From contig CP136064.1 in NCBI GenBank assembly GCA_032622095.1, forward strand, positions 129,941,605 to 130,005,604: a stretch of DNA of 64,000 nt, read 5' to 3'. This document shows positions 2,706-39,195 of this stretch, piece by piece. Position numbers and translations under genes: made by a program. The notes below the pieces were generated by a model, which saw only the letters and a list, made by a program, of their open reading frames with translations, was not told where the DNA came from and made no database searches. Every line of letters starts with the position of its first letter. Positions within the stretch are counted from its first letter, which is position 1. This stretch comes from Siphonodentalium dalli (lineage: Eukaryota; Mollusca; Scaphopoda; Gadilida; Siphonodentaliidae).

Positions 2706-3064
2706 TACCACCGTGGTTATACTTGGTGATACCATATGGTTCACCTTGGTAGAAAAACTTTACTGTGCTACCACCGTGGTGATACCTTGGTGTCACCTTG
2801 GTAGAAAAACCATACTGTGCTACCACCATGGTGATACCTTGGTCGGGTTTGGTGCCACCATGGTTTTACCTTGGTACAAAGACTTTAGTGTGCTACCACC
2901 GTGGTACCACCTTGGTGCCACCATGGTTTCACCTTGTACAAAAACTTTACTGTGCTACCACCGTGATACCACCTTGGTACCACCGTGGTGTTTTCACCGT
3001 GATGCCACTTTACTGTGCTACCACCATGGTGAACCAAGATGTCACCATGGTGAACCAAGGTGGT
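2706..3064. repeat. Array of ACCNNGGT words
   Basis: The stretch is built from short words ACCATGGT, ACCGTGGT, ACCTTGGT and their near forms, packed a few bases apart, on a loose higher-order unit of roughly 55-75 bp marked by 'tttactgtgctaccacc' (about five times from 2757 to 3025). The DNA at 7533-7585 has the same words (accttggt, accatggt, accaaggt), so the array was continuous before the transposon at 3065-7532 inserted in it. The frequent ATG and GGT triplets create chance open frames on both strands. Confidence 0.75.
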
Positions 3065-4083
3065 GGCCTAAAATTCCTTAAATCGACATGTAGTTTGCAA
3101 TAAAATCGAAAAATAAATTTTCGATATGCCGGTTATCATCATCATAATATGAAAATATAGTATGTGTGGAATGTGTCACGTTAAAATGAGCACCGGAGGA
3201 TCATGTTCCTATTTTTCAGCTGCCCTGAAAACGGTAGGCACTTTTATGCATGTTTTCTCCGTTACCAACCCGAAAAGGTAGCATATGGGTACGTACAGTC
3301 CATTTAAACATGTGGCAACAGTTTTATATTGTCACAATCAATACACAACGGTGGCTATAGTCAAATGCATGCAATTTTATAAAATACTCATGATTCGAGC
3401 TGTCACTAGCCAGATGTTTAGGGTCAATGGCTACCCGTATATCTTAGGATTACCGTGCAATTAAAAATTCATTCCGAATCGAACACTCTCTGTCACTCTA
3501 TATGGTGTATAGACAGACGAAATGGACCAATTTCTTATGTGGGGATATATACCTTTTCGAAAACAAAACATGTGGAAAATATTGATGTGGCGTTTGTGAT
3601 ATGCGACACACATATACTACAGTGGGCGTGGTAACGGAGAAAACACATTTTGTGTCTTTATATTCCTAAATATTGCGAATCGTTGAAACACATTAAATTT
3701 TTAATAATATGTGACACAAACGTGTTTGGTTGAATTTCTAACTTCGCTAGAAACATATTAACTATTATTTGAAACTACATGCAGTCCCATGTACTTTGAA
3801 TGTGTATGTGTTTCCAGTAAACCCATATCATTGATCTATGCTGGTGCACACAATTCTGTGCATCTAAAAATAAGACCTGCGTAATCATGCCATTCAATTT
3901 TATTTGATTACATAAATATAAGAATGTGTTAATATATGTCGAACAAGGAATACCTGACAATTCAAACGCCCGGTGTAATATTAGCATGGACATGATGGTA
4001 ACGGAGAAAAAACCTATATATAGTTATATACGACATGTATGCAAGTTTATGAATGAGGGATATTTTGCTAATGAACGAGGAGT

Positions 4084-4710
4084 GGTGACTTTCGATCCAC
4101 CGGAGACTTCGTCCCAGGTGAGCTAAAAATTAACGGTCAAAATGCAAAAATGTAATTTTTTGTTTTTAGAGTTATGTCCCTGGCTCCGCCCCTATTTGAC
4201 CCAGTGACCCCATTTGAACAAATCTGAACCCCAATCACCCAAGGTCCCTCCGTATCAAATATGAATCCATTCGACTCGGTGGTACAGGAGAAGAAGTCGT
4301 TTTAAGAAATACTATGGAGGGAAAGAGTTATGGCCCAGGCTTCGCAACTATTTGACACAGTGACCTCATTTGAACAAATCTGAATGTGAGTCACCTAGGG
4401 AACATCCACACCAAATATGAACCCATTTGGCCTGCCGGTATTTGAGAAGATGCTTAAAAGAATTACTATGGAGGGAAAGAGTTATGGCCCTGGCTTCGCA
4501 ACTATTTGACACAGTGACCTCATTTGAACAAATCTAAACGAGAGTCACATAGGGAACAGCCACACCAAATGTGAACTCATTCGGTCTATAGGTTCCAGAG
4601 GAGAAGATGTTTAAAGAATTGTTGACGGATGGACGGACTGACGGACGGACGACGGACGAGAAGTGATGACTATAGCTCCACTAGAGACTTCGTCTCAGGT
4701 GAGCTAAAAA
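4084..4710. repeat. Nested molluscan-type repeat inside copy 1
   Basis: This segment is absent at the matching place in copy 2. It holds about three degenerate units of roughly 150-160 bp, each with 'gagttatggccc', 'cagtgacctcatttgaacaaatct' and 'ccaaatatgaacccatt' type phrases, then a GACGGACGGAC tract. Both ends carry 'gagacttcgtc(c/t)caggtgagct'. I know these phrases from interspersed repeats of molluscan genomes. It is therefore a secondary insertion in the transposon. Confidence 0.65.
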
Positions 4711-4872
4711 CTACCAAAACAAAATGCATTGTTTTATTCATGGATTGGTACTAGTATGCAATATGATTAAAATTCGAAATTAATTTTAAATAGCTAGTAG
4801 CCTTCAATTAATTTCCTGCCCATATAAATCAATTTAATAAATGTCATCGTTACTAGTGTCATCACATTGAGT

Positions 4873-5621
4873 CTATATGTCTAAACATGACAAACACGTG
4901 AAATTATCACCGTCGTCAAAGACACCGTAATCCTCTCCGCAACCTTCATGAAACCACTTGCCACAATCTGAGCACAACGCCCATTCGTCGCGTTTACTGG
5001 GGTCGAGTGGATCACCATAAACACATCCACACTTCCCACAAGAATACGCATCTTGACAGTTATTTTCCGCACTCTTTTTTGAAGCTCGCTTGCCTTTGAT
5101 GACCGTTGGCCGAGAACCATTAGACTCGCGAACATGTGGTGCAGACATCGTTGTGAACTTCCAATTGCATTTCAGGTCGGATTCACCATTTGAAGTTAGA
5201 AACTTTAAACAATTGGCGCAAAAACATGACGTTTCTCTGGTAGCGATGCCGTTTGCGTGTTTAGTAGGAATAACCGCGTGTACCTTGAGTGTCCAGGAAC
5301 GGGTAGGACATCGGGAAAACTAATTTCACGGCGCTTTCATTGAGGTGAATAAATGCGACATTAACAATCACAAAATGTGGCGGCGTTCTGTATCACACAT
5401 TTACCGGTCTTCACTGCAACGTCAGCCAACCTCTTGGAGGTCCCTCCAACTCCACCACACGGACCCTTTCCATGGCCTGCTTCCAAATATTGCCAGGTAG
5501 CTTTCACGCCCATCTTAGAATGATTACTGACAAGGTTGAAGATATGTCTGTCGATATTGGCTGGTGGGTGAATCCGAAATGTATAGTGGATGTATTTGAC
5601 ACCAGGAACAATATATAACAC
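4873..5621 (-). pseudogene. Transposon protein remnant: HGKG-motif region and C-terminal PHD finger
   Basis: Read on the minus strand from about 5621 down to 4873. The first part (5621-5361) is open and contains a conserved-looking HGKG...GGVGGTSKRLAD block. A frame change and a stop near 5310 then break the gene. The reading frame recovers through a CFCANC cysteine group (near 5220) into a 91-codon stretch from an ATG at 5148. That stretch ends in a PHD-type zinc finger: C37-x2-C40, C59-x2-C62, H67-x2-C70, C85-x2-C88 (Cys4-His-Cys3). I recall the HGKGxxDGxGGxxKR pattern from repetitive proteins of invertebrate genomes, and PHD fingers are common at the C-end of transposases. The catalytic part of a transposase was not found, so the element looks non-autonomous or decayed. 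Copy 2 keeps the same gene at 9560-10300. Confidence 0.65.
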
Positions 5622-6185
5622 CCTTTGTTTGACCTAAATCGGCCAAGGGGTTGAGAGATAGCATGGGTGTCCTATTTGGAACCCCTCTGGACAGCGACAA
5701 TTTTGGATCATGCAGGTTGAGGTGTGTGATGTGTTCGGAAAGAGTGCCTGGGGAGGCGCACCATACAACACCATTTGTTTGACCTAAATCGGTCAACGGG
5801 ACGAGAAATGGCATGGATGTCCTATTTGAACCCTTCTGGTCGGCGGCCATTTTGGATCGGGGTGGTGTGAAAGGGGTGAATATTTAGATTATCTTGGGGC
5901 ACCCTTTGTTTTACCTAAATCGTCCAAGGGGTCGAGAAATGCCATGGGTGCCCTATTTGAACATCTCTGGATGGTGTTCATTTTAGATCGTGGTGTGGTG
6001 AAGGGGGCGTATTTAGATTGGCTTCCTACACACACCTTTTGTTTGACCTAAATCGGCTGAGAAAAGGCATGGCGCCATATTTGAACCCTTCTGAACGGCG
6101 GCCACTTTGGATCTGGATGGGTGCGTGGATAGAATATCTGTTGGGGGGGGACCATATACAAAACCCTTTGTTTGACATAATTATA
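5590..6185. repeat. 130-150-bp tandem units in copy 1
   Basis: The phrase 'ctttgtttgacctaaatcg' recurs near 5622, 5772, 5902, 6035 and 6164 (spacing 130-150 bp). Each is followed by 'caagggg(t)cgagaaatggcatggatgtcctatttgaaccc' and 'gccattttggatc' variants. These are five degenerate direct repeats. The mirror image is at 8960-9540 in copy 2. No function is visible. Confidence 0.75.
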
Positions 6186-6393
6186 AAAAATTCGAATAAG
6201 TAATAAGGAATGGAAGTCACCTTCGTTTTAATCGGTACTGTAACGGGGTGAATATATTGTTAAGATAGATAACTCTGGTCGCCAGACAAGAAATCCATCC
6301 TACATAACCCAACAGAAACTCATCTGCCACTCAGAGCCCATCTGTCTTTAGCAGTGTGGGCAATGGCAACCCGCACTGTCTCTTTGATTTTGC

Positions 6394-6646
6394 TGTCCCA
6401 TTTTGCCCGGATAGCATGGCACATTGTCCCACTTTTCCCATTGCGGTGTCCCGATTTGCCCAAAGGCACGGGCAAAGTGGGACAAAACAAGACGTTCCAA
6501 AAGGGACATACCGAGATGGTGTTTGGTATCAATGATCACCCGATTATATGCGCCGATGAATTATATACCAATCAACGGCTTTCCATTTTTTCCGGCGAAA
6601 ATCCTATCTAAATTTCCTTGAAAACATTTGGTATCCCGCTTTGCCC
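6394..6646. repeat. GGGCAAAGTGGGACA word cluster in copy 1
   Basis: A second word family, with consensus GGGCAAAGTGGGACA (reverse TGTCCCACTTTGCCC), occurs at 6394-6408, 6425-6439, 6447-6461, 6470-6484 (forward, exact) and 6631-6646 with one to three changes each. It is confined to about 250 bp. An unrelated block separates the last copy from the rest. The mirrored cluster is at 8539-8792 in copy 2. Confidence 0.75.
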
Positions 6647-7532
6647 GGGTTTCCCCTATTTGTAATTAAACTGGTTAGTTTTTTGTGTTGATCTGAGTCA
6701 AACAAACCCAGACTGCCGATATAGTATCGCCAAGGGGTTCATATGTGCCTAAAGAATGACCTTCTGATGTTCGCTGGTAACGGAGAAAACGGTAACGGAG
6801 AAAACCGCATATTGTTTACAACCATATACAAAAGTCTTGTGATATTAATTTCAACATGCTCACGTGATATTTTGGGCTTGATAGACGTTCCGTCAGATGA
6901 GATTAGCAGTTGGAGTTAAATCGTCGATTTTCTATGTTTTATGGTGGTAACGGAGAAAACATCCTTAAATAAACTGTTTTGGGAGTGGCAACTCATCTCT
7001 CGTTATTTCTACATATGATTCATTTGCATTTAGAGCTATATGTTCCCCAGATTACACGTGATATTGCGTTTCGTTGTATAAAATTAGGCACGTACAGCAA
7101 GTTGTATCTGTCAGTTATGACGATTTAAATTGATGGTAACGGAGAAAACACCGTTTTCACGGACAACATACCATGGTGGACTGCTTCCAAATATAGTAAC
7201 GTTATAGAATAATGGGTTTTTAATGCGAGAATCGGTCATACAAGTGAGATAATTACATAGGACTTGTATAATATAGTAACGGATTACTCAAGTTTCTGAG
7301 CTCATGAAATCGGATACCCAATAACGGACATCACAAAAACAGCCAATTTTGTCACTCAAACCTCCCATTTGTGAAATATAAGGAAGCCAACCGGATTTTT
7401 CTATGTGATATATATTCGTCATAAGACCCCTGTTTAATGGTGTGTTGCCATTGAGATGGCGGTCGAGACATGCATGAGATACACCCCTCGGACACGTATT
7501 TGCCATTTTTTCGCTATAAGGAATTTTGGGCC

Positions 7533-7653
7533 TGGTACCTTGGTGAAACCATGGTTTCACCAAGGTGACACCAAGGGGGATTTTTATATGGGGCGCCACA
7601 GCAATGGGTAGTTCATGGGTTAATCGCGTGATAGTTAAAGAGCGTTCGTATCC
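7533..7653. other. Spacer between two head-to-head transposons
   Basis: About 120 bp separates the two copies. The left half (7533-7585) continues the ACCNNGGT array that copy 1 split. The right half carries TAAAGAGCGTT (7636-7646) and ends with ATCC (7650-7653), the target duplication of copy 2. Confidence 0.75.
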
Positions 7654-8538
7654 GGCCCAAAATTCCTTATAGCGCAAAAATGGCAAATACGTGTCCGAGG
7701 GGTGTATCTCATGCATGTCCCGACCGCCATCTCAATGGCAACATATCATTAAACAGGGGTCTTATGGCAGATATATATCACATAGAAAAATCCGGTTGGC
7801 TTCCTTATATTTCACAAATGGGAGGTTTGAGTGACAAAATTGGCTGTTTTTGAGATGTCCGTTATTGGGTATCCGATTTCATGAGCTCAGAAACTTGAGT
7901 AATCCGTTACTATATTATACAAGTGCTATGTAATTATCTCACTTGTATGACCGATTCTCGCATTAAAAACCGAGTATTCTATAACGTTACTATATTTGGA
8001 AGCAGTCCACCATGGTATGTTGTCCGTGAAAACGGTGTTTTCTCCGTTACCATCAATTTAAATCGTTATAACTGACAGACACAACTTGCTGTATGTGCCT
8101 AATTTTATACAAAGAAACGCAGTATCACATGTAACCTGGGGAACATATAGCTCTAAATACAAATGAATCATATGTAGAAATAACAAGAGATGAGTTGCCA
8201 CTCCCAAAACAGTTTATTTAAGGATGTTTTCTCCGTTACCACCATAAAACATAGAAAATCGACGAGTTAACTACAACTGCTAATCTCATCTGACGGAACG
8301 TCTATCAAGCCCAAAATATCACGTGAGCATGTTGAAATTAATATCACAAGACTTTTGTATATGGTTGTAAACAATATGCGGTTTTCTCCGTTACCGTTTT
8401 CTCCGTTACCAGCGAACATCAGAAGGTCATTCTTTAGGCACATTTGAACCCTTGGTGATACTATATCGGCAGTCTGGGTTTGTTTGACCCAGTTCAACAC
8501 AAAAAACTAAACCGGTTAATTGCAAATAGGGGAGACCC

Positions 8539-8792
8539 GGGCAAAGCGGGACACCAAATGTTTTCAAGGAATTTTAGATAGGATTTTCGCCGGAAAAATC
8601 TGGAAAGCCGTTGATTGGTATATAATTCATTGGCGCATATAATCGGGTGATTATTGATATCAAACACCATTTAGGTATGTCCCTTTTGGAACCTCTTGTG
8701 TTGTCCCACCTTGACCGTGCCTTTGGGCAAATCAGGACACCGCACTGGGCAAAGTGGGACACTGTTCCAGGCTATCCGGGCAAAATGGGATA
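8539..8792. repeat. GGGCAAAGTGGGACA word cluster in copy 2
   Basis: Words at 8539-8553, 8702-8716 (reverse, degenerate), 8725-8739 (degenerate), 8747-8761 (exact) and 8778-8792. They mirror the cluster at 6394-6646. The first copy is preceded by 'ggggagacccg'. Confidence 0.75.
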
Positions 8793-8959
8793 GCAAAATC
8801 AAAGAGACAGTGCGGGTTGCCATTGCTCACACTGCTACAGACAGACGGGCTCTGAGTTGCAGATGAGTTTCTGTTGGGTTATGTATGATGGATTTCTTGT
8901 CTGGCGACCAGAGTTATCTATCTTAACGATATATTCACCCCGTTACAGTACCGATTAAA

Positions 8960-9545
8960 AGGTTACTTCCATTCCTTATTCGAATTTTTTATAATTATCA
9001 AACAAAGGGTTTTGTGTGGTGCCCCCCCCCCCCACACATATTCTATCCACGCACCCATCCAGATCCAAAGTGGCCGCCGTCCAGAAGGGTACAAATAGGG
9101 CACCATGCCTTTTCTCAGCCGATTTAGGTCAAACAAAAGGTGTGTGTAGGGAGCCAATCTAAATACCGCCCCCCCCCCCTTCACCACACCACGATCCAAA
9201 ATGGACACCAGAGACGTTCAAATAGGGCACCCATGGCATTTCTCGACCCCTTGGTCGATATTGGTAAAACAAAGGATGCCCCAAGATAATCTAAATATTC
9301 ACCCCTTTCACACCACCCCGGGGCATAAGGGTTCAAATAGGACATCCATGCCATTTCGCGTCCCGTTGACCGATTTAGGTTAAACAAAGGGTGTTGTAGG
9401 GTGCGCCTCCCCAGGCACTCTTTCCAATTACCTCACACACCTCAACCTGATCCAGAATTGTCGCTGTCCAGAGGGGTTCAAAATAGGACACCCATGCTAT
9501 CTCTCAGCCCCTTGGCCGATTTAGGTCAAACAAAGGGTGTTATAT
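8960..9545. repeat. 130-150-bp tandem units in copy 2
   Basis: Mirror copy of the tandem units at 5590-6185, with the phrase 'cgatttaggtcaaacaaagg' repeated about five times. It contains runs of C at 9023-9034 and 9170-9179 that are shorter or missing in copy 1. Confidence 0.7.
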
Positions 9546-9559
9546 ATTGTTCCTGGTGT

Positions 9560-10300
9560 CAAATACATCCACTATACATTTCGGATTCACCCACCAGCCA
9601 ATATCGAAACAGACATATCTTCTTCCTTGTCAGTAATCATTCTAAGATGGGCGTGAAAGCTACCTGGCAATAATTGGAAGCAGGTCATGGAAAGGGGCCG
9701 TGTGATGGAGTTGGAGGGACATCCAAGAGGTTGGTTGACGTTGCAGTGAAGACCGGTAAATGTGTGATACAGAACACCGCCGCATTTTGTGATTGGGGCA
9801 ATCACACCAAGGTTAATGTCGCATTTATTCACCTCAACGAAAGCGCCCTGTAATTGGTTTTCCCGATGTCCTACCCGTTCCTAGAACACTCAAGGTACAC
9901 GCGGTTATTCCTACCAAACACGCAAACGGCACCGCTACCAGAGAAACGTCATGTTTCTGCGCCAATTGTTTAAAGTTTCTAGCTTCAAATGGTGAATCCG
10001 ATCTGAAATGCAATTGGAAGTTTACAACGATGTCTGCACCACATGTTCGCGAGTCTATAATGGCCCACGGTCATCAAAGGCAAGCGAGCTTCAAAAAAGA
10101 GTGCGGAAAATAACTGTCAAGATGCGTATCCTTGTGGGAAGTGAGGATGGGTTTATGATGATCCACTCGACCCCAGTAAACGCGACGAATGGGTGTTGTG
10201 CTCTCATTGTGGCAAGTGGTTTCATGAATGTTGCGGAGAGGATTACGGTGTCTTTGACAACGGTGATAATTTCACGTGTTTGTCATGTTTAGACATATAG
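9560..10300 (+). pseudogene. Transposon protein remnant in copy 2 (HGKG region, broken PHD finger)
   Basis: Homologue of the remnant at 4873-5621, read on the plus strand. The HGKG region is damaged: copy 1 reads HGKG where this copy reads a near form, and there are in-frame stops near 9672 and 9890. The PHD finger can still be read at about 10105-10300, but the codon for its second zinc ligand is a stop (TGA near 10141) and small indels disturb the linker before it. Because each copy is broken at different places, neither can make the full protein, and the ancestral gene was intact when the copies parted. Confidence 0.6.
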
Positions 10301-11740
10301 ACTCAATGTGATGACACTAGTAACGATGACATTTATTATATTGATTTATATAGGCAGGAATTAATTGAAGGCTACTAGCTATTTAAAATTAATTTCGAAT
10401 TGTCGGTTGTTAAATTCCAACCTAAGACTTGGGAGTCTGAAGCCCAGTCGGGATGGGACTTGTTGAGCTGGAGGAGGGGGTGATCAGTAGTGTACAGTTG
10501 GTAATTTCAAGGTGGATTTTCACCAATATACATACGCGAAGTCTCTCTAGCCACATATCCTGTTTAGATCTACTTCTTTTAACGTGATTATGAAAAGTTC
10601 TGACTGTTGTGATCTCCAGAGTCCCAGTCTTATCATTCTTTGCAGTCTGGTGAGCGACCACACAGTCATTGACTGTCTTGTTTTGGAAACTTGTCCAAAA
10701 CCGGTTTGAGTATAGCAAAATATTCCTCATTCATAAACTTGCATACATGTCGTATATAACTATATATAGGTTTTTTCTCCGTTACCATCATGTCCATGCT
10801 AATATTACATCGGGCGTTTGAATTGTCAGGTATTCCTTGTTCGACATATATTAACACATTCTTATATTTATGTAATTAAATAAAATTGAATGACATGATT
10901 ATGCAGGTCTTATTTTTAGATGCACATAATTGTGTGCACCAGCATAGATCAATGATATGGGTTTACTGGAAACACATACACATTCAAAGTACATGGGACT
11001 GCATGCATGTAGTTTCAAATAATAGTTAATATGTTTCCAGCGAAGTTAGAAATTCAACCGAACACGTTTGTGTCACATATTATTCAAAATTTAGTGTGTA
11101 TCAACGATTCGCTATATTTAGGAACATAAAGACCCAAAATGTGTTTTCTCCGTTACCACGCCCACTGTAATATATGTGTGTCGCATATCACAAACGCCAC
11201 ATCAATATTTTCCACATGTTTTGTTTTCGAAAACGTATATATCCCCACATAAGAAATTGGCCAATTTTGTCTGTTTATAAACCATATAGAGTGATAGAGA
11301 GTGTTCGATTCGGAATGAATTTTTAATTGCACGGTAATCCTAAGATATACGGGTAGCCATTGACCCTAAATATATGGCTAGTGACAGCTAGAATCAAGAG
11401 TATTTTATAAAATTGCATGCATGTGACTATAGCCACCATTGTGTATTGATTCTGACAATATAAAACTGTTGCCACATGTTTAAATGGACTGCACGTAACC
11501 ATATGCTACCTTTTCGGGTTGGTAACGGAGAAAACATGCATAAAAATGCCTACCGTTTTCATGGCATCTGAAAAATAGGAACATGATCCTCCGGTGCTCA
11601 TTTTAACGTGACACATTCCACACATACTATATTTTCATATTATGATGATGATAACCGGCATATCGAAAATTTATTTTTTCGATTTGATTGCAAACTACAT
11701 GTCGATTTAAGGAATTTTAGGCCATCCGCAGTGTCGTTGA

Positions 11741-12035
11741 TAAAGAGCGTTTAGACACTGTTAAACCGCGTTACATAGGAAATATGCATGCATTTCCATT
11801 GCATAGAACTCGCTTCTACGAATCTCCCAAAGGCTGGCAAAATTGTTAATAAATGCGTTTATGTCTCTTCGATAATTGCCTAATACAATTAAAGCGTGGA
11901 GTCTGTCCATTTCCCCATGAAAAATCGAATTCTACGACCACTGGTTTGATTCCATCGATCGTCTTATGTTTACGTTTCGACGCATAATGTACTTGCACTA
12001 AATCGTACCTCTTGACTCATCGCCGAGAGGCTTTA
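11741..12035. other. No gene recognised
   Basis: The flank of copy 2 holds a TAAAGAGCGTT word at 11741-11751. Nothing else was recognised before the tandem units of the Helitron. Confidence 0.4.
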
Positions 12036-12044
12036 TCTGTATGA

Positions 12045-12524
12045 CATCATTAGGGTGCTGCTTTGTTTTTGGACGGGTCAAACCCGTCAAATCGTTACCC
12101 CGACCTGACCTTGACCTTCAAAATGGTCAATTCAAGGTCAAATCTGGTAAAACGGACGGATTTCGACGAAATTTGATACCTACGGCTACTTTTGTCCCGG
12201 GAGTCTTTTGGACGGGTCAAATCGTGACCCCGACCTGACCTTGACATTCAAAATGGTCAATTCAAGGTCAAATCGGGTAAAACGGACGGATTTCGACGAA
12301 ATGTTATACCTATGAATACTTTTATATGTAGGGGTACTTTTGTCCGGGGAGTGATTTGGACGGGTCAGATCATGACCCCGACCTGACCTTGACCTTAAAA
12401 AATGTCAATTCAAGATCAAATCTGGTAAAATACGGATTTTAACGAAATTTTATACCTATGGGTACTTTTGTCTGGATGAAAGCAGAGGTAAAACAGCCCG
12501 GACGAAGTCGGGCCCACCAGCTAG
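12045..12524 (+). mobile_element. Helitron 3' part with ~130-bp tandem units
   Basis: The right end has the Helitron signature: a hairpin GCCCG(8-nt loop)CGGGC at 12496-12513, then CCACCAG and CTAG (12521-12524) followed by T. Inside are about three tandem units of roughly 130-160 bp, each starting near 'ggacgggtca' and containing 'cctgaccttgacctt' and 'caattcaaggtcaaat'. The 5' end (A|TC) was not located, so the start given is only where the repeats begin. No Rep/helicase coding is present, so this copy is non-autonomous. Confidence 0.7.
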
Positions 12525-13020
12525 TTGCCATATATTTTTCTTAGATATGGACTTCGTGTTTGTTGAATTCGGGTTCGAAAAAATATATTTTAAAAACCTC
12601 TATAAATTTCACATTTAGTATTTCTAACATACTCCACTATGAAATATACTCTTAAAATTTGGCATCAATGGGTTTGGTTACTGTGACGACTAATAAAAGT
12701 AAACATAATCCTTTATTTTGACTGCATCAAATTTGGGAAAAATTGGGTTTGGAAAGTCCTTAAATACTTAATTTTATACCCAAATGGTTGCAATCTGGTC
12801 GGTGAAAATTTAAACACGGGAATAGATTGCCGTTGACATCAGACGATTTAAAGGAGCAAACAAGAGCAATAAAGAGCGTTCCTTATGCAGGAAAATTTAT
12901 ACAGATGGGTCTCCTTACCATGTAGGGGAATGGCATGGGATAGGAGTATCTTCTCATGTTCCATCCATGAATACTGGCTGAGAGTAAAACATTACCTATA
13001 CATTTGAACTCAAATTAGGA
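12525..13020. other. No gene recognised
   Basis: AT-rich DNA without recognised features except one TAAAGAGCGTT word at 12870-12880. Confidence 0.4.
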
Positions 13021-13029
13021 GTAATAGCA

Positions 13030-13790
13030 AGGATGTGGCTAGATGGGGGTGTGGGGTGTGTCTCACCCCCCAACTTTGGTCAATTTTTTCAACCTTAGGG
13101 GGGTGACAGGTTGGAAATTTCCAACACATGGAAAGCTTGTGTCCTGGTCCTCCCCCGTGGCTAGTCAAAACTGCTACTAAATTTAAGAAAACAATATTGT
13201 CATACATTTGGTTAACATTGTCATTGGAATTGTCATCATTTGGAAATTTTCCAACCTAAGTGGGGAGTCAGGTTTGAAATTTCCAACTCTATGAAGACTT
13301 GAGGCCAATCTAGATGCTAGGATTTGCGATTTTCTTGTATAGTTTTCCAAATTTTCTCACACCGGGCTGAACAAACATGGACGGACACAATGTCCTGGTC
13401 TCTTCTCCGTAGCCGTGTGCATTTGTCTGGAGTAGGCTACTAGATGTTAGGATTTATGCAATTCTAAGGTTAAAGTATCTGAATTTTCTTATACCGGGCA
13501 TAGTTTATGAATACATAGGATATTAGGCCTGAGGACTGATGTGCAAGGGGGGGGGGGCAAATGGAATTATGCAAAACTTGTATTTGGTCTGTGATTCTGA
13601 TTCAAGGGGGGGGGGGGGGTGGAAATGGAATTATGCAAAAGTTGTGTTTGGTCTGTGATTCTGATTCAAGGGGGGGGGGGGGGGTGCAAATGGAATTATG
13701 CAAAAGTTGTGTTTGGTGTCTGATTCAAGGGGGTGCAATTGGAATTTCCCAAGGTGGACACCCCCAACGGAGACCCTCTAGCCACTTCCC
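13030..13790. repeat. G-rich tandem repeat region
   Basis: From about 13545 the unit 'gattcaag(G)n tgcaaatggaattatgcaaaagttgtgtttggtctgt' repeats three to four times at 55-70 bp, each with an 8-14-base G run. Further left, 'ccaaccttaggggggtgacaggttggaaatttccaac' and a diverged copy at 13245-13290 form a looser repeat. No gene seen. Confidence 0.65.
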
Positions 13791-13813
13791 TGACTAATAT
13801 ATTTCATTATCAT

Positions 13814-14025
13814 TAAAGAGCGTTTATAATCATTTCAGAAGATATGTGGGGAAATTGGTGGCCGATTTTTAAATAAGAGTCTAACACCTCTATCCTGCAT
13901 GATTCCATTTACGACATGACATATCATCATGTAACATATGACTAACACCCTTCCTATCATACAATGGTTTATCACCAATTTGCCACATATCTTTCTAGAC
14001 AACGATAAACGCTATTTATTTATCA
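13814..14025. mobile_element. Small foldback (MITE-like)
   Basis: The segment 'agcgtttata...agatatgtggggaaattggt' at 13819-13862 is answered by its inverted form 'accaatttgccacatatct...gataaacgct' at about 13974-14013. The arms are imperfect, about 40 bp. Exact ends and target duplication were not resolved. Confidence 0.5.
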
Positions 14026-14039
14026 TATAATAATGTAGT

Positions 14040-14588: not shown

Positions 14589-14590
14589 TA

Positions 14591-14984: not shown

Positions 14985-14986
14985 TA

Positions 14987-15690: not shown

Positions 15691-15694
15691 CTGT

Positions 15695-16880: not shown

Positions 16881-16888
16881 GTATGTAA

Positions 16889-18800: not shown

Positions 18801-18809
18801 AATATTATA

Positions 18810-23419: not shown

Positions 23420-23427
23420 CAACCCGC

Positions 23428-28237: not shown

Positions 28238-28245
28238 GGCTATAT

Positions 28246-28900
28246 GGTAATAGGTGTGGCCAATAGGTATACCAGGAGTGACTGTGTGGCCAATGTTAAT
28301 GTGATATGCGGGGTATTGGTATATCTAGGGTTGTATGGCCATTGGTGAGGTGTTTATGTATACCTAGAGTGACTATATATGCATGGTGGGGTTTATATGT
28401 ATGTCGTGAGTCACGGTGAGTGGCAATATGTCAAAATGTGTGGGCAATACTGTATGACTACGAATGTGATGTGTGAGTATACAGCGAGAGTCTGAATTGC
28501 CATGTGTGAGATGTACATTCAAGTCTGGCCTGTATGAATGGCTGTGTGCAGAGTATGGGGATATATAGAAGGGCTGTATGGCCATTAGGGAGGTGTATAT
28601 GTATACCTGGAGTGACTATGGTTATGGTTGTAGTGTATATGTATATCTTGAGTGGCTATATGGCCATGGGTGTGGCAAGTAAATATACAGGGAGTGATTC
28701 TATGGCCACTGATGTCAGAGGCGAATATGTATACAAGAAGAGACTGTATGATCATCAATGTGGTGAACAAGTACACATGGAGTGACAATAAAGTCATAGT
28801 GATGTGCAGGGTTATACCTGGTGTGCCTGCATGACTGTAGAGTCATGTGTGGATGTACTGGTATACAAGGTGTGGCTGTATGGCCATGCGTGAGGTGTAT
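28246..28900. repeat. Degenerate minisatellite, right block
   Basis: Continuation of the 45-60-bp array at 25905-26896. Confidence 0.7.
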
Positions 28901-31066
28901 GTGTTTTCTGTACAATGGAGGAAACGGTTTTCCTGACATGAGTCAATAAATTTTGATGAATTTTGATGTTGTTGGTCAGAGTAGACGCATAATATGGCCC
29001 ATCTCAGTTCAGTTTCAAAGTTCTGCCCATTTCTGTTCAAAACTGGCCAGAATCCCAAAAGAAGTTTTCGGTAACATTCCATACTGCATCCTTTAACATG
29101 AATGTGACATGCCATATAAAGTACTGAGACATCCAAAATAGAACATATAGTTGTCAGTGAATTATGTTACATATTTAATAACCAAGTATTTGTCACAATT
29201 TGCTACCATTTCGGAACAGCAGAGAATAATGTTCGGGATATATGTGAAAAATAAACTCTTTTTTTTTATCAAATTTGGTTGCTATCTTGGGTAATTTTGT
29301 CTAAAAACACCTCAGTGTCACTCATTTAAGATAGATCAAAACAATAAACAGATTTGATACCAAAGATAGTTCCATTTTACTTGAGAAAATCGTCTAAACC
29401 AGAAAAGTTATTTTTTTGGCCCATTTTGATGTCGAGTTTGTGATGGAAAATTCCAATAATTCTGGTATGTCAGTGGCTATATACAATACTAACATTCAAG
29501 CGAGGTGCATTAACAATGTTAGTATTCAATCTATAAAATACTCAATAGCCAATTTTATAAATTAACCCCAACTTTTAACCGATTGCATGACACGCTGGGG
29601 CGATATTTACCATTTTCCATATTTTGGGTGTCATTTTGGCAGCCACTTTGAGCCAAAGTGACAATTTTGGCTCCATTGAGTCAGATTAAGTTGGAATATT
29701 CATAAGTAATGGTACGCGTTACTTACAGTGCACAGTTCTGCCCATTTATTGTTGAAATATGACTACAATCCCAAAGGTGAATTTTTATCGCGTTCTGTAA
29801 AATCAAACTTTTTATGGATCAGAAGAGACAGGGACCACATGAATGGCATATTTGATTGCTCCAACGATCACTTAAATGAACAGTAGAAAATAAAGTCACA
29901 ATTATCACCCAGTTCCATACAGCAGAAACTGATCAAGAAGTTATTAGTGAAAACACATTAAATTTTCCACTTCCGACTACCATTTTGGCGACCATCTTGA
30001 ACGTGGAGTTCCCATTTTACTATGAAAAGTGGAATTATATCTTAGCTTCACAAAAATATATACATTTGTATACATATGACAAGATTTTCTCACTATAATT
30101 TGCATCAAACTGACTTAGTGACCTGTCTGAAAAAACGATGGCCATGTTGGACGCCATCTGGTCTGGTGTCTACACGACCGCTTTGTTTCGTGTTAACATT
30201 GATTAAATGTTGAGGGACAACATGCGCAGGAAACTGAGTCAGATGAAGTTAAATTCTGGGGGTGCCTGGATACCTATCAGCTCCTGGACTAGTGTACGTA
30301 TTGGCAGAGTTAATTGGGGAAAGCTTGTTCCCATGGCAACTAGGGCCTAAATGTGAGTATGGGGAAACCTGCTTTGATGATATATACATATATATATATC
30401 ATATTTCAGAGCTGCGAAGGTAATCTTATAGCAGGAATTCCCATTCTTAACATGAGCACCAAAGCTACTACCTGAACTTCAATTTGTCAATAACCAGCCA
30501 ATCTTGAAACTGCCAATTTGCGCCAACCAGTGTTCATATAAAACTTCGTTTATTGTGGTCAATCACTAGCTAAATGCGAAAAATCTGTTATATTGTCTTT
30601 ATGGATTACCGAAGATGATATTATCTGAAATTGAAACTTATCACATGAATTTTGTGCTGACAGGTACAAACGAAGTCCAAATTTTAATTTGTTTACTCAG
30701 TTTTTGAAGAAAATCCATTAGTTTCCATGGCAACAAGCTAATTTTGGTGATCTGGGCTCAAAGTTTAGTCTATTTTATATATTGGTCTTTTCTCTATTGG
30801 ATAAAGCAATGCCTACATCGATATGGCTGATACTATTCACATTGCTGGCCGTCAAATAAACTGCCCTATACCGTAAATTATCACAGGGGTTGGTTGGTTG
30901 CTATGGCAACTGCTTAATCACCCTAACTGACCTCGGATTTTTGTGCCTACCGATTTTTAAAACTGAAACATACCAAAGATTAAGTGTGTAAAATTTCGTA
31001 ATTTATTCACAAAGTGTAACGATTCGCCTATTTCTGGCACATATCCTCTCCACTAGTAGTACATAT

Positions 31067-31782
31067 TAGGGATCTGCGAGTCAGGGATTTTGCATCGAAA
31101 CGAATCTCGATATCGAATCTCCTTCCTGATATCGACATCAAATCGAATCGAATCATCTAGTGATTGACATTGTTTACATCATTATACTACTTATTTATGT
31201 TGGCAGTAGCCTCTATACAGGCGCCTGTGGCGCATAAGATACTATGGGTGGCGGGATGGGGTGGTGGGTGGGATCTCATTATACTACTTATTTATGTGGG
31301 CAGTAGCCTCTATACGGGCGCCTGTGGCGCATAAGATACTATGGGTGGCGGGATGGGGTGGTGGGTGGGATCTCATTATACTACTTATTTATGTGGGCAG
31401 TAGCCTCTATACGGGCGCCTGTGGCGCATAAGATACTATTTCGATGTCTCATGACAAAAAACTAGATAATATATAACAATGTTAATATCCTTAAACATCC
31501 GTTGGAACTTGTGTTTTTTTTAAGGAAAATCATGACATAGGTATAAAGTCACTCTCAGTCTCATGGAGGGTTTGGGATACGTTGCATTGAATTTCTATCT
31601 GACACAATGTCATGGCGAACATGTGAGGTCAGGTCATTTGACATGTGTTTGTAGACACAGAAAACGTGACTACACCAAAGCAACACCAATTCGAAAATAT
31701 CCGAATCGTTGATCGATGTTGATCTCGAATCGGGTGCCCGATATCGACATCGAATCGAATCTCAAATATTTGCAGGCCCCTA
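31067..31782. mobile_element. hAT-type element carrying a satellite, TSD GTACATA(T/G)
   Basis: Starts TAGGGATCTGCGA and ends TTTGCAGGCCCCTA, a relative of the element at 26897-28237 (also with GAATCGAAT-rich ends). The duplication GTACATAT / GTACATAG matches at 7 of 8 bases. The interior is a tandem repeat of 97 bp (31181-31439). Confidence 0.8.
31181..31439. repeat. 97-bp tandem repeat, 2.7 copies
   Basis: Units start at 31181, 31278 and 31375 ('attatactacttatttatg'). About 50 bp of the unit, from 'ggcgcctgtggcgcataag' through 'ggatggggtggtgggtggg', is the same as in the 85-bp satellite at 36739-38367. Confidence 0.85.
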
Positions 31783-31790
31783 GTACATAG

Positions 31791-32075
31791 CCGTTACCTA
31801 TATACATATTTTTTGCAATCACTAGATTAAAGCTGCAATATATTTGATATATGCCTAATAATATGATCTTGAGGGCATTACCATTTCTGACTATGGTTTT
31901 CTTGTCACCTCTCGGTGGCAGGGCCCAAGCTAGGGATTGAAAACAGGGAGAGATGAAGTCTCCCTCTGCAGATTTTAGGGAGACATCAACCAAAACAGGG
32001 AGACTTATAAAAAAGATCAATTTTTGGATAAATAATTTTAACTGTCATCCAATTGAATTATATGTTTGAGAATTA
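31791..32075. other. No gene recognised
   Basis: Short stretch between the hAT and the Helitron; contains 'acagggagagatgaagtctccctctgcag', a small local palindrome only. Confidence 0.4.
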
Positions 32076-33907
32076 TCTTCTTCTATCTTCTATATCTATA
32101 TTTCCGACTGTCTGTCTGTGTTCTATAGAAATTCACAGGGGTCACCTAGATAGCACAAAAGGGGTCTGACTTTTTAGAGAAAGATAACGGTGTGGGTTAG
32201 AATTTTCTAAAGTGACGCTGTTGTTGCCAGGGGCAGAAAAGGGGGGGGGGGGGGGGGGGGGGGGCAGAAAACAAATTTGTCGCCGATTGCCACCAAACTT
32301 ATATATAATCATCCCCATGATATGAGGAATCTAATGGTGTGGTTTAAATATGTCAAAAGTCGCGCAGTTCGAGTCAGAGATGCCCGGAAGGGGAGAGGGG
32401 CACCAAAATTGATCAAAATAATTTTAGCCCGACTTCCACCAAATTGATGCACATTCTTCTGAGATCTTCTCCATGATACAAGGAATCTTATTGTGTGATT
32501 TAAAGATGCCAAATTGGTGTCTTTTGGATGAGAGATTTGGGGGGGGGGGGTGGGTACTAAATCTGATAGAATTGGTTTAGTCGCCAATGCCACCAGACTT
32601 GTACAAAATCATCCCCATGGTATGAGGTGTCTAATGGTGTGGCTTAAAGCTGTCAAAAGTTGCATCAATCGAGTCAGGGTGCAATGAAAGGGAGAGGGGC
32701 ACCAAAATTGATACACAATATTTTTAGCGCCAATTTCCACCAAATTGATACACATTCTTATCCATGATATGAGGAATCCAATCGTGTGATTTTAAAGACG
32801 TCATATTGGTGCTGTTTTGGAGAGATGGGGGTGGGGTTGGGCACTAAATTTGATGAAAATTTGTTTAGTCACGGATTAGCACCAAACTTATAAATAATGA
32901 TCTTCATGATATCAGGAGCCTAATTGTGTGGTTAAAAGATGTCAAAAGTGGGCCATTCGAGTCAAGGGTGCCTAAAGGGTGAGCGGGACATAAATATTGA
33001 TAAGCAAAATGTTTAGCGATTTCCACCTGATTGATACATATATGAGAGGGATCTAATTGTGTGGTTTAAATACGCCAATTGAGTGCCGTTTGGGTGACTG
33101 ATATGTAATGGGGAGCCTAAATTTGATACAAATTTGTATACTCACCAATTTTCACCAATTGTATATATATTCATCTCCATAATGAGTTTAAGTGTGTGGG
33201 TTAATGATGTCAAAAGTGGCGCCGCTTGAGTCCGAAATAGGGATGGGAGGGTCACCAAAACTGATAAAAATATGGTTAGTGCCAATTACCATCAAACTGA
33301 TACTCATACACATTCTTTTCAGATGATACAATGAATCAAATACTTGTGAATATCTGTCTGTTCTATATATAATCTTACGGGGTACAATCGAGATGGCACC
33401 AAGGCGGTCTAACATGGATCATTTATTACGAAGAAGATAATGGTGCGGGTTAAAATTTTATAAAATGACGTTGTTGGTGTCAGGGGCAGAAAAGGGGAGG
33501 GGCAGCAAATAAATGAATAAATCATCTCCATTATATTATGCATGCATGAGTCTAATAGACATGGTTTAAATATGTCAAAACGAGGTTCAAGTCATGCATG
33601 AGGGGAGTTGCAACAAAGGTGATACAAATATATTTAGCACTAATTCCGCCAAATTCATGCATGTTCTTCTCTAATGATATGATGAATTAAATCACATTTG
33701 ATGTCTTTGGGTTATGAAATGCGAGAGGAGATGCACAAGCATTGATAAGATCGTTCAATTCGACGATATCCACCAAAGTTATATGTAGTCATCTCCCAGG
33801 CAATCTCCATATCGTTCTAAGGAGTTTTTGGCATTCAACCAAATATCCACAGCATGCAGAGGGTTTCACATCACTTTAACCTGGGCAACGCCGGGTAACC
33901 CTGCTAG
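32076..33907 (+). mobile_element. Non-autonomous Helitron with ~300-bp degenerate tandem units
   Basis: The right end reads 'cctgggcaacgccgggtaac' then CCTGCTAG (CTAG 33904-33907) followed by T, a Helitron-type end with a GC hairpin. The left end begins with TC after A at about 32076 (it could be a few bases later, at 32089) and continues 'tatatctatatttccgactgtctgtctgtg', typical of animal Helitron starts. The body is about five degenerate units of 280-320 bp with 'caccaaattgatacacattctt', 'atgatatgaggaatctaat' and 'gggagaggggcaccaaaattgat'. A 24-base G run is at 32241-32264. No Rep/helicase gene. Confidence 0.7.
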
Positions 33908-33969
33908 TATATTATATAATCATGACAAATAATAAAAAAAATAAAATTCATTTAATCCATTACATAAAT

Positions 33970-35487
33970 GGGTGAATATCTGAAAACTGTACAATTTGAT
34001 GTTACTACCATTGGCCCTATAATTACAGAATTGTGTGCAACGGGAGTAAACCAAATAATATTTTTTCCAGGTGACATCATATTTATAATGAATTTCAGCC
34101 AAAAACCTGGATCAATTTTGAGCTGTTGGATTTTTACAGAGCCAACTTGGTGCCATGTCATGAAATTGCTGAATGTTACTTTTCAACATTCAACACTATA
34201 TAGATAATTTTTTTCCTTAAAATATAAGATAAATTCAACATATTCAAACTTATTTGAGTCCATGAAACATGAACATAACAACTATAGCTGGAAGATGGAC
34301 TTTCTTCTTTCAAACTTTAAAATATAGACCACATTGCACCTGTTACCAATTTTTGTGTCACTCCTGTTACCAAGAGTATAACAAGGCATTACACTAGGGT
34401 GTAGAGTAGCCTTCTTGAGAAACCTGCCACCAGAGAGAAGTTCATTAAATAGGTAATCCCAACAAAAGTTCAAAAGGCGGTGATTTGAAATCATTTCTGC
34501 AGACCGGAGCACATTGCTGAACAAATGAAGAGAGTAGGTTAATTGTTTGTCACTCCTGTTACCGCAATATCATTTCTTTCCATCATTTCCCATTTATCAG
34601 GAATATATGTTTTATATACTATATTGAGTCTTTTGTGCAAATCATAAGTCATTAGTTATCAAATCCTGGAACATTTTTCGAAAATTTCTATAAACTACCA
34701 TATATGTCACTCCTGTTACTGTCACTCCTGTTACTTTTTTGGTAACAGGAGTGACAGTAACAGGAGTGACAGATATGTGCAACAAACGGTTATTGCCACC
34801 ACCCCGTTTTCTGGCCAGTATTTGTCCATGTAGATCAAGAAGATAGGAATTCAATATAAGCCATTTAAAAAAAACAACTTATAACAACATTGTAAAAACC
34901 AGGTGTGTCACTCCTGTTACCAAAATGTCACTCCTGTTACCAATGTCACTCCTGTTACCAGCGCATATTTCCATTTTGCTAAAAAAATACTCGCCCAAAG
35001 AAAACATTTATTATTATAATGGGATTGATACAAAGTTTAGACACTTATGAATATGTGATCAACTGGGAACTCTTGAGTTCATGGCCTACAGAGTAATCAG
35101 TTTTGCACTTTTGTGCAAGAAATATGCGAATTCACCCAGAGTATAGGGATTTTAAACATATTTACTATGATGAGCTTATTCAAGCTTAATTATTTCCTGG
35201 AAGTAACAAAAGGTAATAACAATAAATACATTTTAGTTGGGTGAAATGGCCGCACTTGGTGTAAGCTGATTGTTGTTTGTTAGTAACAGGAGTGACATGT
35301 TTTACTACCTACCTTGAGTGAGTCATGCTGCCATGGCAATGGGAATAAAATTCCAGCATGCCGAAGCAAATCCTAATTCATGGTAAGTCATCAGGTTCAA
35401 CATGGAAATGTTTTTTTCATGTGAATTTGAACTATGAATTTCGAGCAATGCAATTTTCCAAATTGTACAGTTTTCAGATATTCACCC
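33970..35487. mobile_element. DNA transposon with GGGTGAATATCTG ends, TSD AAAT
   Basis: Starts GGGTGAATATCTGAAAACTG and ends with the exact inverted form; the inverted repeat is about 29 bp. AAAT flanks both sides (33966-33969 and 35488-35491), a 4-bp duplication. At 1518 bp it carries no recognisable gene. Its body contains about ten GGTAACAGGAGTGACA words. I group it with 3065-7532 and 36247-39191 because of the GG-type ends, 4-bp duplication and internal word repeats. Confidence 0.85.
34356..35297. repeat. Ten copies of GGTAACAGGAGTGACA
   Basis: Reverse word at 34356-34371, 34548-34563, 34705-34720, 34720-34735, 34906-34921, 34926-34941 and 34944-34959. Forward word at 34741-34756, 34757-34771 (lacks the first G) and 35283-35297 (lacks the first G). 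The block 34705-34771 is an inverted repeat of two reverse and two forward words. The DNA between other copies is unrelated. Confidence 0.9.
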
Positions 35488-35491
35488 AAAT

Positions 35492-36242
35492 ATTTTCCAT
35501 GTGCTATCTCAGTTCACAACAGATCTTCGCTCGGAAAGTGACGTCACATTACAATATGCTCGCAATTACACCACCTCGGTCATAGGTGTAGTGAGCATAG
35601 CCAGGCATATTTACGCCTGGTCATTCCATTCATTGCCCATTGTAATTTCATTACCCATTGTAGCCGAGCTAATGAATGGTATCGTCACCTGGGATCGCAG
35701 CCTGGTCAGGGTTCACCTAAATGCAGAAAGTCCGCTAGAAATGCAGCAAGTCCGCTAGAAATGCAGCAAGTCCCTCTAATGGAGGGTGGTTTATTGGAGT
35801 TGTTGATGAGTTTAATCGGTGTTTTATTTAAATTATTATCCATTTGATTTATGATCTGTGGCAGTTGTTTAGAGATGATTGGAAATCTTTATCCCTTTAT
35901 AATTAAATTATGCAATTTATGGGTATTTGTAGAATTTTAACTGTAAAATAAAAGTTTTTCAAAGTTTTATTAAGATGCTATTTCTTTTATTCTACACACT
36001 ATTTAATATAATTTAATTAATATGATTTATATATTTTTTATTACGTGTTGGTCTATTCCTGATATGGTATAAATAAAGAGTGTTTGTTTTACACCTAATA
36101 ATATTCGCTTTTGAAAAGAGCTTTCAGTGTTAGTCTACTAAGTGTTAGTCTCACTAATTTACCCCCATGTCCACTTTTGCCTGAAAGGATGTCTTGATTG
36201 ACCAATAAAATTATTCGTAATCGTATTTGTCATTTTCATCAT
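35492..36242. other. No gene recognised
   Basis: Contains a short tandem repeat of 'gaaatgcagcaagtccgcta' (three units, 35718-35775). Otherwise AT-rich DNA without features. Confidence 0.45.
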
Positions 36243-36260
36243 AGTAGGGTGATTCTCCAG

Positions 36261-38850
36261 GTGTTGTACGGGACATTTATACTCTTATATGGCCCCTATT
36301 TTATTCAGGAAAATAAACTTGCGATATATAATATACTCTGGCAATGCTGCTAGGCACATATAACAAGCACAATAAAACTTGATTGCTCATAAAGATCTAA
36401 TTTAAAAATAGTAAAAAATATGCGGTGTTGTACGGGACATAATTTGGGAACTGGTTTTGTGGTCAATGACTTTCAACGACATATTCAATCCAACGATGAA
36501 GGTACTTGTCAGGATGTGTCCTTTGTGTGCTCAGAAAGTTAACCCTTTTGCAAAGTTGACATAACTATTGTAATGGGGTTCATTTACATTCCAGATATTG
36601 TTGAAAAAGCTGGTGTTGTACGGGACAACTGGAAAAGTGTTCTACGGGACATAATTTTCCATCAGAGATTATTATTGTATAATTTAAAGAAATGGTTCAA
36701 AGATAAATATTTTTCACTTAAGTATCATACCCATTGATATTACATACATACGATCATGAGTATGTAGGGGTTCCTGCGGCACATAAGATACTATGGGTAG
36801 CGGGATGGGGTGGTGGGTGGGTACTTACATACATACGATCATGAGTATGTAGTGGCGCCTGCGGCGCATAAGATACTATGGGTGGCGGGAATGGGTGGTG
36901 GGTGGGTACTTACATACATACGATCATGAGTATGTAGGGGCGCCTGCGGCGCATAAGATACTATGGATGGCGGGATGGGGTGGTGGGTGGGTACTTACAT
37001 ACATACGATCATGAGTATGTAGTGGCGCCTGCGGCGCATAAGATACTATGGGTGGCGGGAATGGGTGGTGGGTGGGTACTTACATACATACGATCATGAG
37101 TATGTAGGGGCGCCTGCGGCGCATAAGATACTATGGGTGGCGGGATGGGGTGGTGGGTACTTACATATATATGAGCATGAGTATGTAGTGGCGCCTGCGG
37201 CGCATAAGGTACTATGGGTGGCGGGGTAACTTACATACGATCATGAGTATATGGCGGGATGGGGTGGTGGGTGGGTACTTACATACATATGATCAAGATA
37301 CATATGGCGCATAAGATACTATGGGTGGCGGGATGGGGTGGTGGGATGGTACTTACATACATACGATCATGAGTATGTAGTGGCGCCTGCGGCGCATAAG
37401 ATACTATGCATGGCGGGATGGGGTGGTGGGTGTGTACTAGTACTTACATACATACGATCATGGGTATGTAAGGGCGCCTGCGGCGCATAAGATACTATAA
37501 TTGGCGGGATTGGGTGGTGAGTGGGTACTTACATGCATACAATCATGAGTGTGTAGTGGCGCCTGCAGCGCATAAGATACTATGGGTGGCGGGATGGGGT
37601 GGTGGATGGGTACTTACATACATACAATCATGAGTATGTAGGGGCGCCTGCGGCGCATACGATACTATGGGTGGCGGGATGGGGTGGCGGGATGGGGTCA
37701 CTTACATACGATCATGAGTATGCAGTGGCACCTGCGGCGCATAAGATACTATGGGCGGCGGGATGGGATGGTGGGGTCACTTACATACGATCATGAGCGT
37801 GTAGTGGCGCCTGCGGCGCATAAGTTACTATGGGTGGCGGGATGGGGTGGTAGGGTCACTTACATACGATCATGAGTATGTAGTGGCGTCTGCAGCGCAT
37901 AAGATACTATGCATGGCGGGATGGGGTGGTGGGTGGGTACTTACATACATACGATCATGAGTATGTAGTGGCGCCTGCAGCGCATAAGATACTATGGGTG
38001 GCTGGATGGGGTGGTGGATGGGTACTTACATGCATACGATCATGAGTATGTAGGGGCGCCTGCGGCGCATAAGATACTATGTATGGCGGGATGGGGTGGT
38101 GGGTGGGTACTTACATACATACGATCATGGGCATGTAGGGGCCCCTGCGGCGCATAAGATACTATGAGTGGCGGGATTGGGTGGTGGGTGGGTACTTACA
38201 TACATACGATCATGAGTGTGTAGTGGTGCCTGCAGCGCATAAGATACTATGGGTGGCGGGATGGGGTGGTGGGTGGGTACTTACATACACACGATCATGA
38301 GTATCTTGGGGTGCCTGCGGCGCATAAGATACTATGGGTGGCGGGATGGGGTGGTGGGTGGGTACTTTAGTGTACGGTATCGATATTCCAACAAAAGTAG
38401 AGTTATTTGAATATCCGGTATATGCATGACATGGGCACACAGGGTGGTACAAGGGACATAGTCCGTACTTATTATTTTAAAAAATAGTATACTTACTACC
38501 CAAGAGTATATTTATAGTAATATAGACAATATAATTGTGTAACAATTATGTTACTACACAGTATATGTGTGTTTTAGTAATAAATGTCAACCAAATGCAA
38601 TATATTGAACTTTATAAGAGCAGTAAAATTCATCAGTCAAATAGTGTTGTACGGGACATGTCCCGTACAACACCCCAAAGTGTTGTACGGGACAATATCA
38701 ATTTGAGTACTGAGAAAGGACAATGAGTTAGGTCTCATTTCTTGCTTGATGGCTTATATACAGAGGCATTGAAACTGAAATATGGGTGATCATATGGCAA
38801 GTTGGTCTTTCTGGGACAGAAAAATGGTTTAAAAAGTGTTGTACGGGACA
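36261..38850. repeat. Eight copies of GTGTTGTACGGGACA
   Basis: Forward at 36261-36275, 36425-36439, 36613-36627, 36637-36651 (one change), 38644-38658, 38680-38694 and 38836-38850; reverse at 38659-38673. The pair 38644-38673 forms a perfect 30-bp palindrome. A degenerate copy is near 38444-38458. Copies lie only in the non-satellite parts of the element. Confidence 0.9.
36739..38367. repeat. 85-bp satellite, about 19 units
   Basis: The unit begins 'tacttacatacatacgatca', continues 'tgagtatgtagtggcgcctg', 'cggcgcataagatactatgg' and ends 'ggatggggtggtgggtgggt'. Most units are 85 bp; several around 37170-37280 and 37660-37870 are shortened. The GC-rich part is shared with the 97-bp repeat at 31181-31439. 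Open frames found here on either strand are repeat artefacts. Confidence 0.92.
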
Positions 38851-39195
38851 TTGATAAAGGGCCAAATTTTGGGATTGAAAAAATGCGTTTATCGATATAT
38901 AGTGTAATTATTTCATTTCTATTCCATGAAATGTGTTCCCAGGTTACATTTACATAATAACATGTTTAAAAAGTGCTTAATATGCAGGGTATAAAATACA
39001 GGAAAAAGAGAGTAATGTTTGGATTTTCACGTAGGAGATATATGTCGATAAAAATCACACAATCACATTTCAACCAAAACTATTTGAATGTTGGTTAGCC
39101 TTATATCAATACCTTAACTAAATGACAACTGATTTAGTCTAAAATACCTTTTCAATTTTTGGATATTTGACTGTTATCTGGAGAATCGCCCAGTA

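Follow-up and report, generated by a model that had tools for sequence, protein, structure and literature searches.

Subterminal words of several transposon families in a scaphopod genome: different sequences in similar layouts, and a probable role as transposase sites

Background

The window analysed here, a 64,000-nucleotide stretch at 129.9 Mb of contig 4 of the scaphopod Siphonodentalium dalli (genome 2.23 Gb in 9 contigs), carries four transposable elements (E1 to E4) in which a short word is repeated on both strands, and the question that this locus raises is what these family-specific words do. In the Ac/Ds system the transposase binds subterminal AAACGG repeats, and some non-autonomous Ds elements are little but ends (PMC3260210; here and below, papers are cited from their accessible portions). 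The first-pass annotation of this DNA had set the words apart from that system, as running through the body of the elements, and had proposed one superfamily in which each family carries its own internal binding code. Here, we find the words near the ends, in layouts that recur under different words. Sequence comparison makes it probable (about 0.78) that E1 to E4 are non-autonomous members of one Sola-like cut-and-paste superfamily, with the words as subterminal sites for the family's own transposase.

Results and discussion

Four elements of three families

The elements of the window are the following:
3065..7532, + strand: E1, 4468 bp, non-autonomous; termini GGCCTAAAATTCCTTA and GGCCCAAAATTCCTTA; duplication TGGT
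7654..11723, - strand: E2, 4070 bp, E1 family, inverted; duplication ATCC
33970..35487, + strand: E3, 1518 bp; termini GGGTGAATATCTGAAAACTGTACAATTTG; duplication AAAT
36247..39191, + strand: E4, 2945 bp; termini GGGTGATTCTCCAG and GGGCGATTCTCCAG; duplication AGTA

All four begin with GG, carry inverted ends and repeated words, and are flanked by exact 4-bp duplications, as had been noted before. E1 and E2 lie in opposite orientation, 121 bp apart, and align in blocks of 96% and 93% identity; they are thus one family, and the window holds three (E1/E2, E3, and E4). The earlier remark that unrelated DNA separates the word copies therefore holds between families and fails within one. At one and the same junction, about 700 bp fall outside the aligned blocks in E1 (about 4071-4770) and about 311 bp in E2, and the DNA around E1 (2900-3060 and 7536-7575) is rich in ACCATGGT and CCAAGGT repeats. 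Across the genome, and as lower bounds, there are at least 39 matched places for E1 (fragments included), at least 40 scored copies of E3 at 96-100% identity, and at least 42 matched places for the left end of E4. Exact 4-bp duplications flank six of the eight E1-family and seven of the eight E3-family loci fetched (13/16, E1 and E3 included).

A word for each family

The words of E1 (GGTAACGGAGAAAACA), E3 (GGTAACAGGAGTGACA), and E4 (GGTGTTGTACGGGACA) are joined by two from elsewhere in the genome, GGTAACGTATCTTACA in an element called C6 and GGTAACGGACGTACC in a family represented by locus L042. Within the window, at up to three mismatches, E1 and E2 hold seven copies each, E3 ten, and E4 eight. 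Exact genome-wide matches, set against the same 16-mer pattern read backwards, number 523 vs 0 for E1, 628 vs 1 for E3, 168 vs 0 for E4, 42 vs 2 for C6, and 278 vs 5 for L042. The view that each family has a word of its own is upheld. The counts contradict the idea that the repeats reflect chance, or drift in one recent family through minisatellite-like spread of a word: E4 does hold a minisatellite and the words of young E3 copies drift normally, yet 42-628 copies stand against 0-5 in the reversed controls, five words occur at similar positions, and open transposase frames lie between the words of three elements, so that this idea is hardly credible.

Four of the five words start with GGTAAC. 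A frame of GGTaac-N7-ACA was noted first, and the fifth family (L042) was then fetched by its transposase alone; its word upholds the GGTAAC start and not the final ACA.

Similar layouts under different words

The words of E1, E2, and E3 are placed as follows, each element having two unlike ends (A and B) and distances running from the outer word edge to the terminus:
3251..4012: E1 end B words GGTAACGGAGAAAACA at 3251 (-), 3630 (+), and 3997 (+); 186, 565, and 932 bp from the terminus
6776..7150, + strand: E1 end A words at 6776 and 6791 (15-bp doublet), 6946, and 7135; 741, 726, 571, and 382 bp, all toward the terminus
8036..8410, - strand: E2 end A words at 8036, 8225, 8380, and 8395; distances as in E1
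10771..11536: E2 end B words at 10771 (-), 11142 (-), and 11521 (+)
34356..34735, - strand: E3 end A words GGTAACAGGAGTGACA at 34356, 34548, 34705, and 34720; 386, 578, 735, and 750 bp
34741..34771, + strand: E3 extra doublet, inverted, at 34741 and 34756; palindromic with 34705-34735
34906..35297: E3 end B words at 34906 (-), 34926 (-), 34944 (-), and 35282 (+); 566, 546, 528, and 190 bp

At end A, all words point toward the terminus and the two innermost form a tandem 15-bp doublet, and the three different words of E1, E3, and C6 stand at 382-387, 571-578, 726-742, and 741-757 bp from one terminus (C6 itself at 387, 577, 742, and 757 bp). Two further loci agree, L031 with 388, 580, 737, and 752 bp and L029 with 386, 726, and 741 bp, the second word of the latter being mostly deleted. 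End B has one outward word, at 186 bp in E1, 190 bp in E3, and 201 bp in C6, followed by inward words at 565 and 932 bp in E1, at 528, 546, and 566 bp in E3, and at 582 and 750 bp in C6. From the outward word to the next inward one, the start-to-start step is 379 bp in E1 and 381 bp in C6, and among the places listed for these two words it is mostly 374-383 bp, with single cases of 324 and 359 bp.

A second clade, with ATxHGKG transposases, comprises E4 and loci L041 and L042 and has a layout of its own, seen in the window as:
36260..36651, + strand: E4 end A' words GGTGTTGTACGGGACA at 36260, 36424, 36612, and 36636; 13, 177, 365, and 389 bp
36740..38367, no strand: minisatellite with 19 units of 85 bp, occupying the whole middle of E4, without words
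38643..38850: E4 end B' words at 38643 (+), 38659 (-), 38679 (+), and 38835 (+); 533, 517, 497, and 341 bp

The words of end A', which point inward in all three, lie at 13, 181, 370, and 393 bp in L041 (with two extra words at 560 and 582 bp) and at 12, 191, 380, and 402 bp in L042; the words of end B' stand at 361, 526, 548, and 564 bp and at 363, 530, and 553 bp, respectively. One gap between neighbouring words measures 188-192 bp in E1, E3, C6, E4, L041, and L042 and 180-194 bp in further copies among the places listed; we suggest that it could correspond to 18 turns of DNA or to about one nucleosome repeat. Other neighbour gaps vary more (155-168 and 179 bp).

In E1 and E2, the middle, from about 0.95 kb inside end B to 0.76 kb inside end A, is free of words, and E3 (1.5 kb) is nearly all end and hence looks word-filled, the sole such element in the window. 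With every word within about 0.95 kb of an end and none in the bodies of E1, E2, and E4, the words are subterminal; their supposed run through the body has to be given up, and with it the contrast to Ac/Ds, the words here being spread over up to 0.95 kb. The shared word frame and the conserved distances, on the other hand, go beyond what the first-pass annotation had seen.

The agreement between families was compared with uniform random positions (0-900 bp, or 0-600 bp in the second clade; one end, free placement assumed). Out of 2,000,000 draws, 136 came as close as observed for E1-C6 and 35 for E1-E3, or 446 and 186 with the doublet counted as one unit; in the second clade the numbers were 6 for E4-L041, 206 for L041-L042, and 707 for E4-L042. 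Like distances might nonetheless stem from common ancestry with few insertions or deletions, the spacing itself being unconstrained, an account that is compatible with ours and that we hold possible, if rather unlikely. Common descent of the ends is likely, and with words masked some cross-family alignments rise above shuffles: 38 comparisons of ends gave global z of -1.6 to 2.9 and local z of -0.7 to 4.7, and further pairs reached a global z of 3.1, so that the ends may still be weakly akin (four within-family comparisons gave global z of 42 to 103). Yet the DNA between the words of E1, E3, and C6 is not clearly alignable across families, global z is at most 2.5 in 37 of the 38 comparisons, so that substitutions look nearly saturated, and the 188-192-bp gap is kept in six elements all the same.

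Transposases between and beside the words

Full-length relatives with an intact transposase had been proposed as a check, and at other places in the genome three elements do have uninterrupted frames of one transposase superfamily between their words, though none was found for E3. The transposase of C6 has 853 amino acids and that of L041 694. The proteins have an RNase H-like core nearest to Mos1 with three invariant aspartates, and homologous transposases stand beside four of the five words (all but that of E3). The strongest match, at C6:84812050, lies within the 9467-bp C6 element with its own word, for which the 25-bp pair bracketing the words was chosen among several inverted pairs with duplications listed; another copy, at C6:138887173, carries five exact words at unchanged spacings. 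A larger structure around the 9.5-kb element (G000:C6:84807793-84819480; L039/L037/L040) has perfect 25-bp inverted ends starting with GGCTTGTTG and an ATAT duplication.

Transposases at C2:135750025 and C4:117577402 are flanked by the E4 word, which also lies next to copies at C3:80256172 and C4:96697815 that share 94% and 92% identity with the former. L041 is a whole element that by blastn has only words and termini in common with E4, and a long E4 copy (C2:135255774-135262002, 6229 bp) combines E4 ends (95.5% over 467 columns and 93.7% over 655 columns) with transposase pieces that share 50% and 45% identity with those of L041. For E1, transposase pieces flanked by the word lie at C1:53702847 and C1:78439905, and a remnant is present in E1, E2, and eight fetched E1-family loci, in the window as:
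4876..5633, - strand: E1 transposase C-terminal remnant, with an EAGHGKG block at 5364-5633 and a Cys-rich PHD-like end in 4876-5319
9575..10297, + strand: E2 transposase remnant, 56% identical to P0001 over 93 amino acids, with a PHD-like piece at 10145-10297 (Pfam PHD E 0.0038, below the Pfam cut-off)

Chromatin-reader-like stretches recur at the C-termini, Tudor-like in the P0008 model (residues 790-864) and PHD-like in others (the C-terminus of the L038 open reading frame and the E1/E2 remnants), and a role in target choice is possible. None of ten relatives had a Pfam match above the cut-off, a PDB search by sequence gave one weak match (E 0.47), and Foldseek alone gave no PDB match at E ≤ 0.001 and, in the viral library, one match, to a phage "transactivator/viroplasmin protein". 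The family is widespread in animal sequence, with 400 proteins at E ≤ 0.001, and the names shown among the 120 listed are for the most part those of uncharacterized, hypothetical, or unnamed mollusc and lancelet proteins; among contigs from bacteria and archaea 25 stretches matched a pattern and among viral contigs 12, none of them a relative.

Words that flank a transposase gene need not bind its product. The binding protein might instead be a second one, either a host product or an accessory product of the element like TNPA in maize En/Spm, and in CACTA elements a separate protein does bind the subterminal motifs (PMC2613891); the common GGTAAC part could likewise be the site of a host factor. 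The words differ between families within one genome, however, something that one host factor alone would leave unexplained, and the only long open frame in the C6, L041, and L042 stretches scanned is the transposase (these being unspliced frames, a second product is possible), so that we consider this unlikely. Still less probable is that the words are promoters, silencers, or other expression elements kept for regulation rather than transposition: they do occur on either strand and to either side of the gene, and TNPA of En/Spm also regulates (PMC2613891), but the gene-less derivatives E3 and E4 keep their end words, and at both ends the layout is measured from the terminus.

Rates of change and points against

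Words change more slowly than the DNA around them between some subfamilies and not among young E3 copies. In the outer 1 kb of E1 vs E2, 0/105 word positions and 71/1894 others are changed (one-sided P 0.02), and nine E1-family copies have 1/105 variable columns in words vs 113/1895. Pairwise comparisons of E3 with its relatives, which are not independent of each other, gave slower words for five of eight divergent ones (L017, L020, L021, L027, and L031; about 5-7% vs 15-16%), with 8/150 vs 215/1364 for L017, and 0/111 vs 32/1361 for L029. For E4 and its long copy the counts (0/48 vs 17/415 and 0/64 vs 13/563) are not significant. A MAFFT alignment of E3 with the eight divergent relatives indicated no conservation of the words (116/1256 word cells vs 828/11518) but misaligned the palindrome, and the pairwise counts were used instead. 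The pattern fits words that are constrained in lineages still moving and unconstrained once a copy has landed.

Several observations weigh against reading the words as transposase sites in one superfamily. The lag of words behind neighbouring DNA, put forward earlier as a check, is seen for E1 vs E2 and E3 vs L017, among others, and breaks down in three comparisons: words change more in E3 vs L028 (8/150 vs 33/1357), show no clear difference for L035 (10/69 vs 191/1000), and vary like the rest among eight close E3 copies (9/150 vs 64/1368 columns). No transposase was found near E3 words (0 of 8 loci at 6 kb or less from the 56 places used from the listing), nor by tblastn in 28 E3-family or E3-word loci; an unrelated transposase therefore stays conceivable for the E3 family. 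The 877-amino-acid relative at L038 has no word in the 7.8 kb fetched, where the ends were perhaps not reached. The frame is not strict (GGTGTT in E4, no final ACA in L042), and spacing ranges over 170-190 bp for the C6 word and 167-194 bp for the L042 word in further copies among the places listed. Of the 20 loci taken from around E3 words, only eight combine E3-like ends and an exact 4-bp duplication, the duplications of C6, L041, and the relatives at E3 words are not independent evidence because an exact match was demanded, and no 4-bp duplication flanks L042 or the long E4 copy. The single superfamily proposed earlier is borne out by 4-bp duplications, GG ends, and homologous transposases at E1, E4, and two further words; for E3, membership would follow from ends, duplication, word frame, and layout.

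Known systems and a possible address

Sola elements have 4-bp duplications, a DDD-type transposase, mostly 2-9 kb of length, and variable termini (PMC10741241), the duplications of Sola2 being AT-rich (PMC3627910). The first two traits both occur here and give the name Sola-like, which sets the elements beside Sola by description; the accessible Sola literature makes no mention of family-specific subterminal words. Such motifs are known from CACTA elements (En/Spm, Tam1, and soybean Tgm), direct and inverted, at both ends, and diverging within species (PMC2613891), a likeness that goes with clear differences: Tgmt* has CACTA ends, a 3-bp duplication, and a tnp2-type transposase, and four repeats within 159 bp and 24 within 732 bp, with no fixed few-site layout described in the accessible portions (PMC2613891). 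The termini here start with GGC or GGG rather than CACTA or CACTR. None of the ten relatives reached a Pfam cut-off, be it for tnp2-type transposases or for any other family. Ac/Ds has 8-bp duplications, the rule for hAT elements, vs 4 bp here, and a 6-bp motif in the outer 200 bp. In piggyBac and piggyBat, several transposase sites occupy two ends, and motif location and spacing have been compared between relatives (PMC11707139); those ends are much shorter, and their TTAA target differs from TGGT, ATCC, AAAT, AGTA, ATAT, and others here, where the proteins have no Pfam match above the cut-off. The TA duplication of Tc1/mariner likewise differs from the 4 bp here, and only the catalytic fold resembles Mos1.

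On the preferred reading, the 16-bp words are putative binding sites for the family's own transposase, whose multimers would assemble in a defined shape on several sites at set distances and orientations, bring the two unlike ends A and B together, and cut at the GG termini. Distance and orientation would then matter in synapsis, and the variable middle of the word may act as a family address, the transposase serving only elements that carry it. Going further, related families of this genome might have the machine in common and differ in the address: about seven site positions, with their orientations and spacings, would be kept, and all of a family's sites would be rewritten to a new word together with its transposase. 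We hold such a re-codable address system about as likely as not. Kept layout with changed words seems new: no description of it appeared in the literature on subterminal repeats, Sola, and conserved spacing, as covered by the titles and starts of abstracts of the papers listed, few of them subscription papers. It bears on the puzzle of how a transposase with many scattered sites changes specificity without losing them all, and several families with like layouts, different words, and both autonomous-looking and non-autonomous members make the step from word to word directly testable.

Minor observations at E3 words

At L022, one of the loci taken from around E3 words, a pair of inverted ends was taken as chance. 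The interior of L028, considered as a transposase, turned out to be another nested repeat: a 2.55-kb repeat (L028:3800-6350), with dozens of matched places, lies nested inside an E3-type element. At L026 (G000:C1:178252216-178252661), E3 words stand on either side of an E4-type end, probably through nesting of one element in the other.

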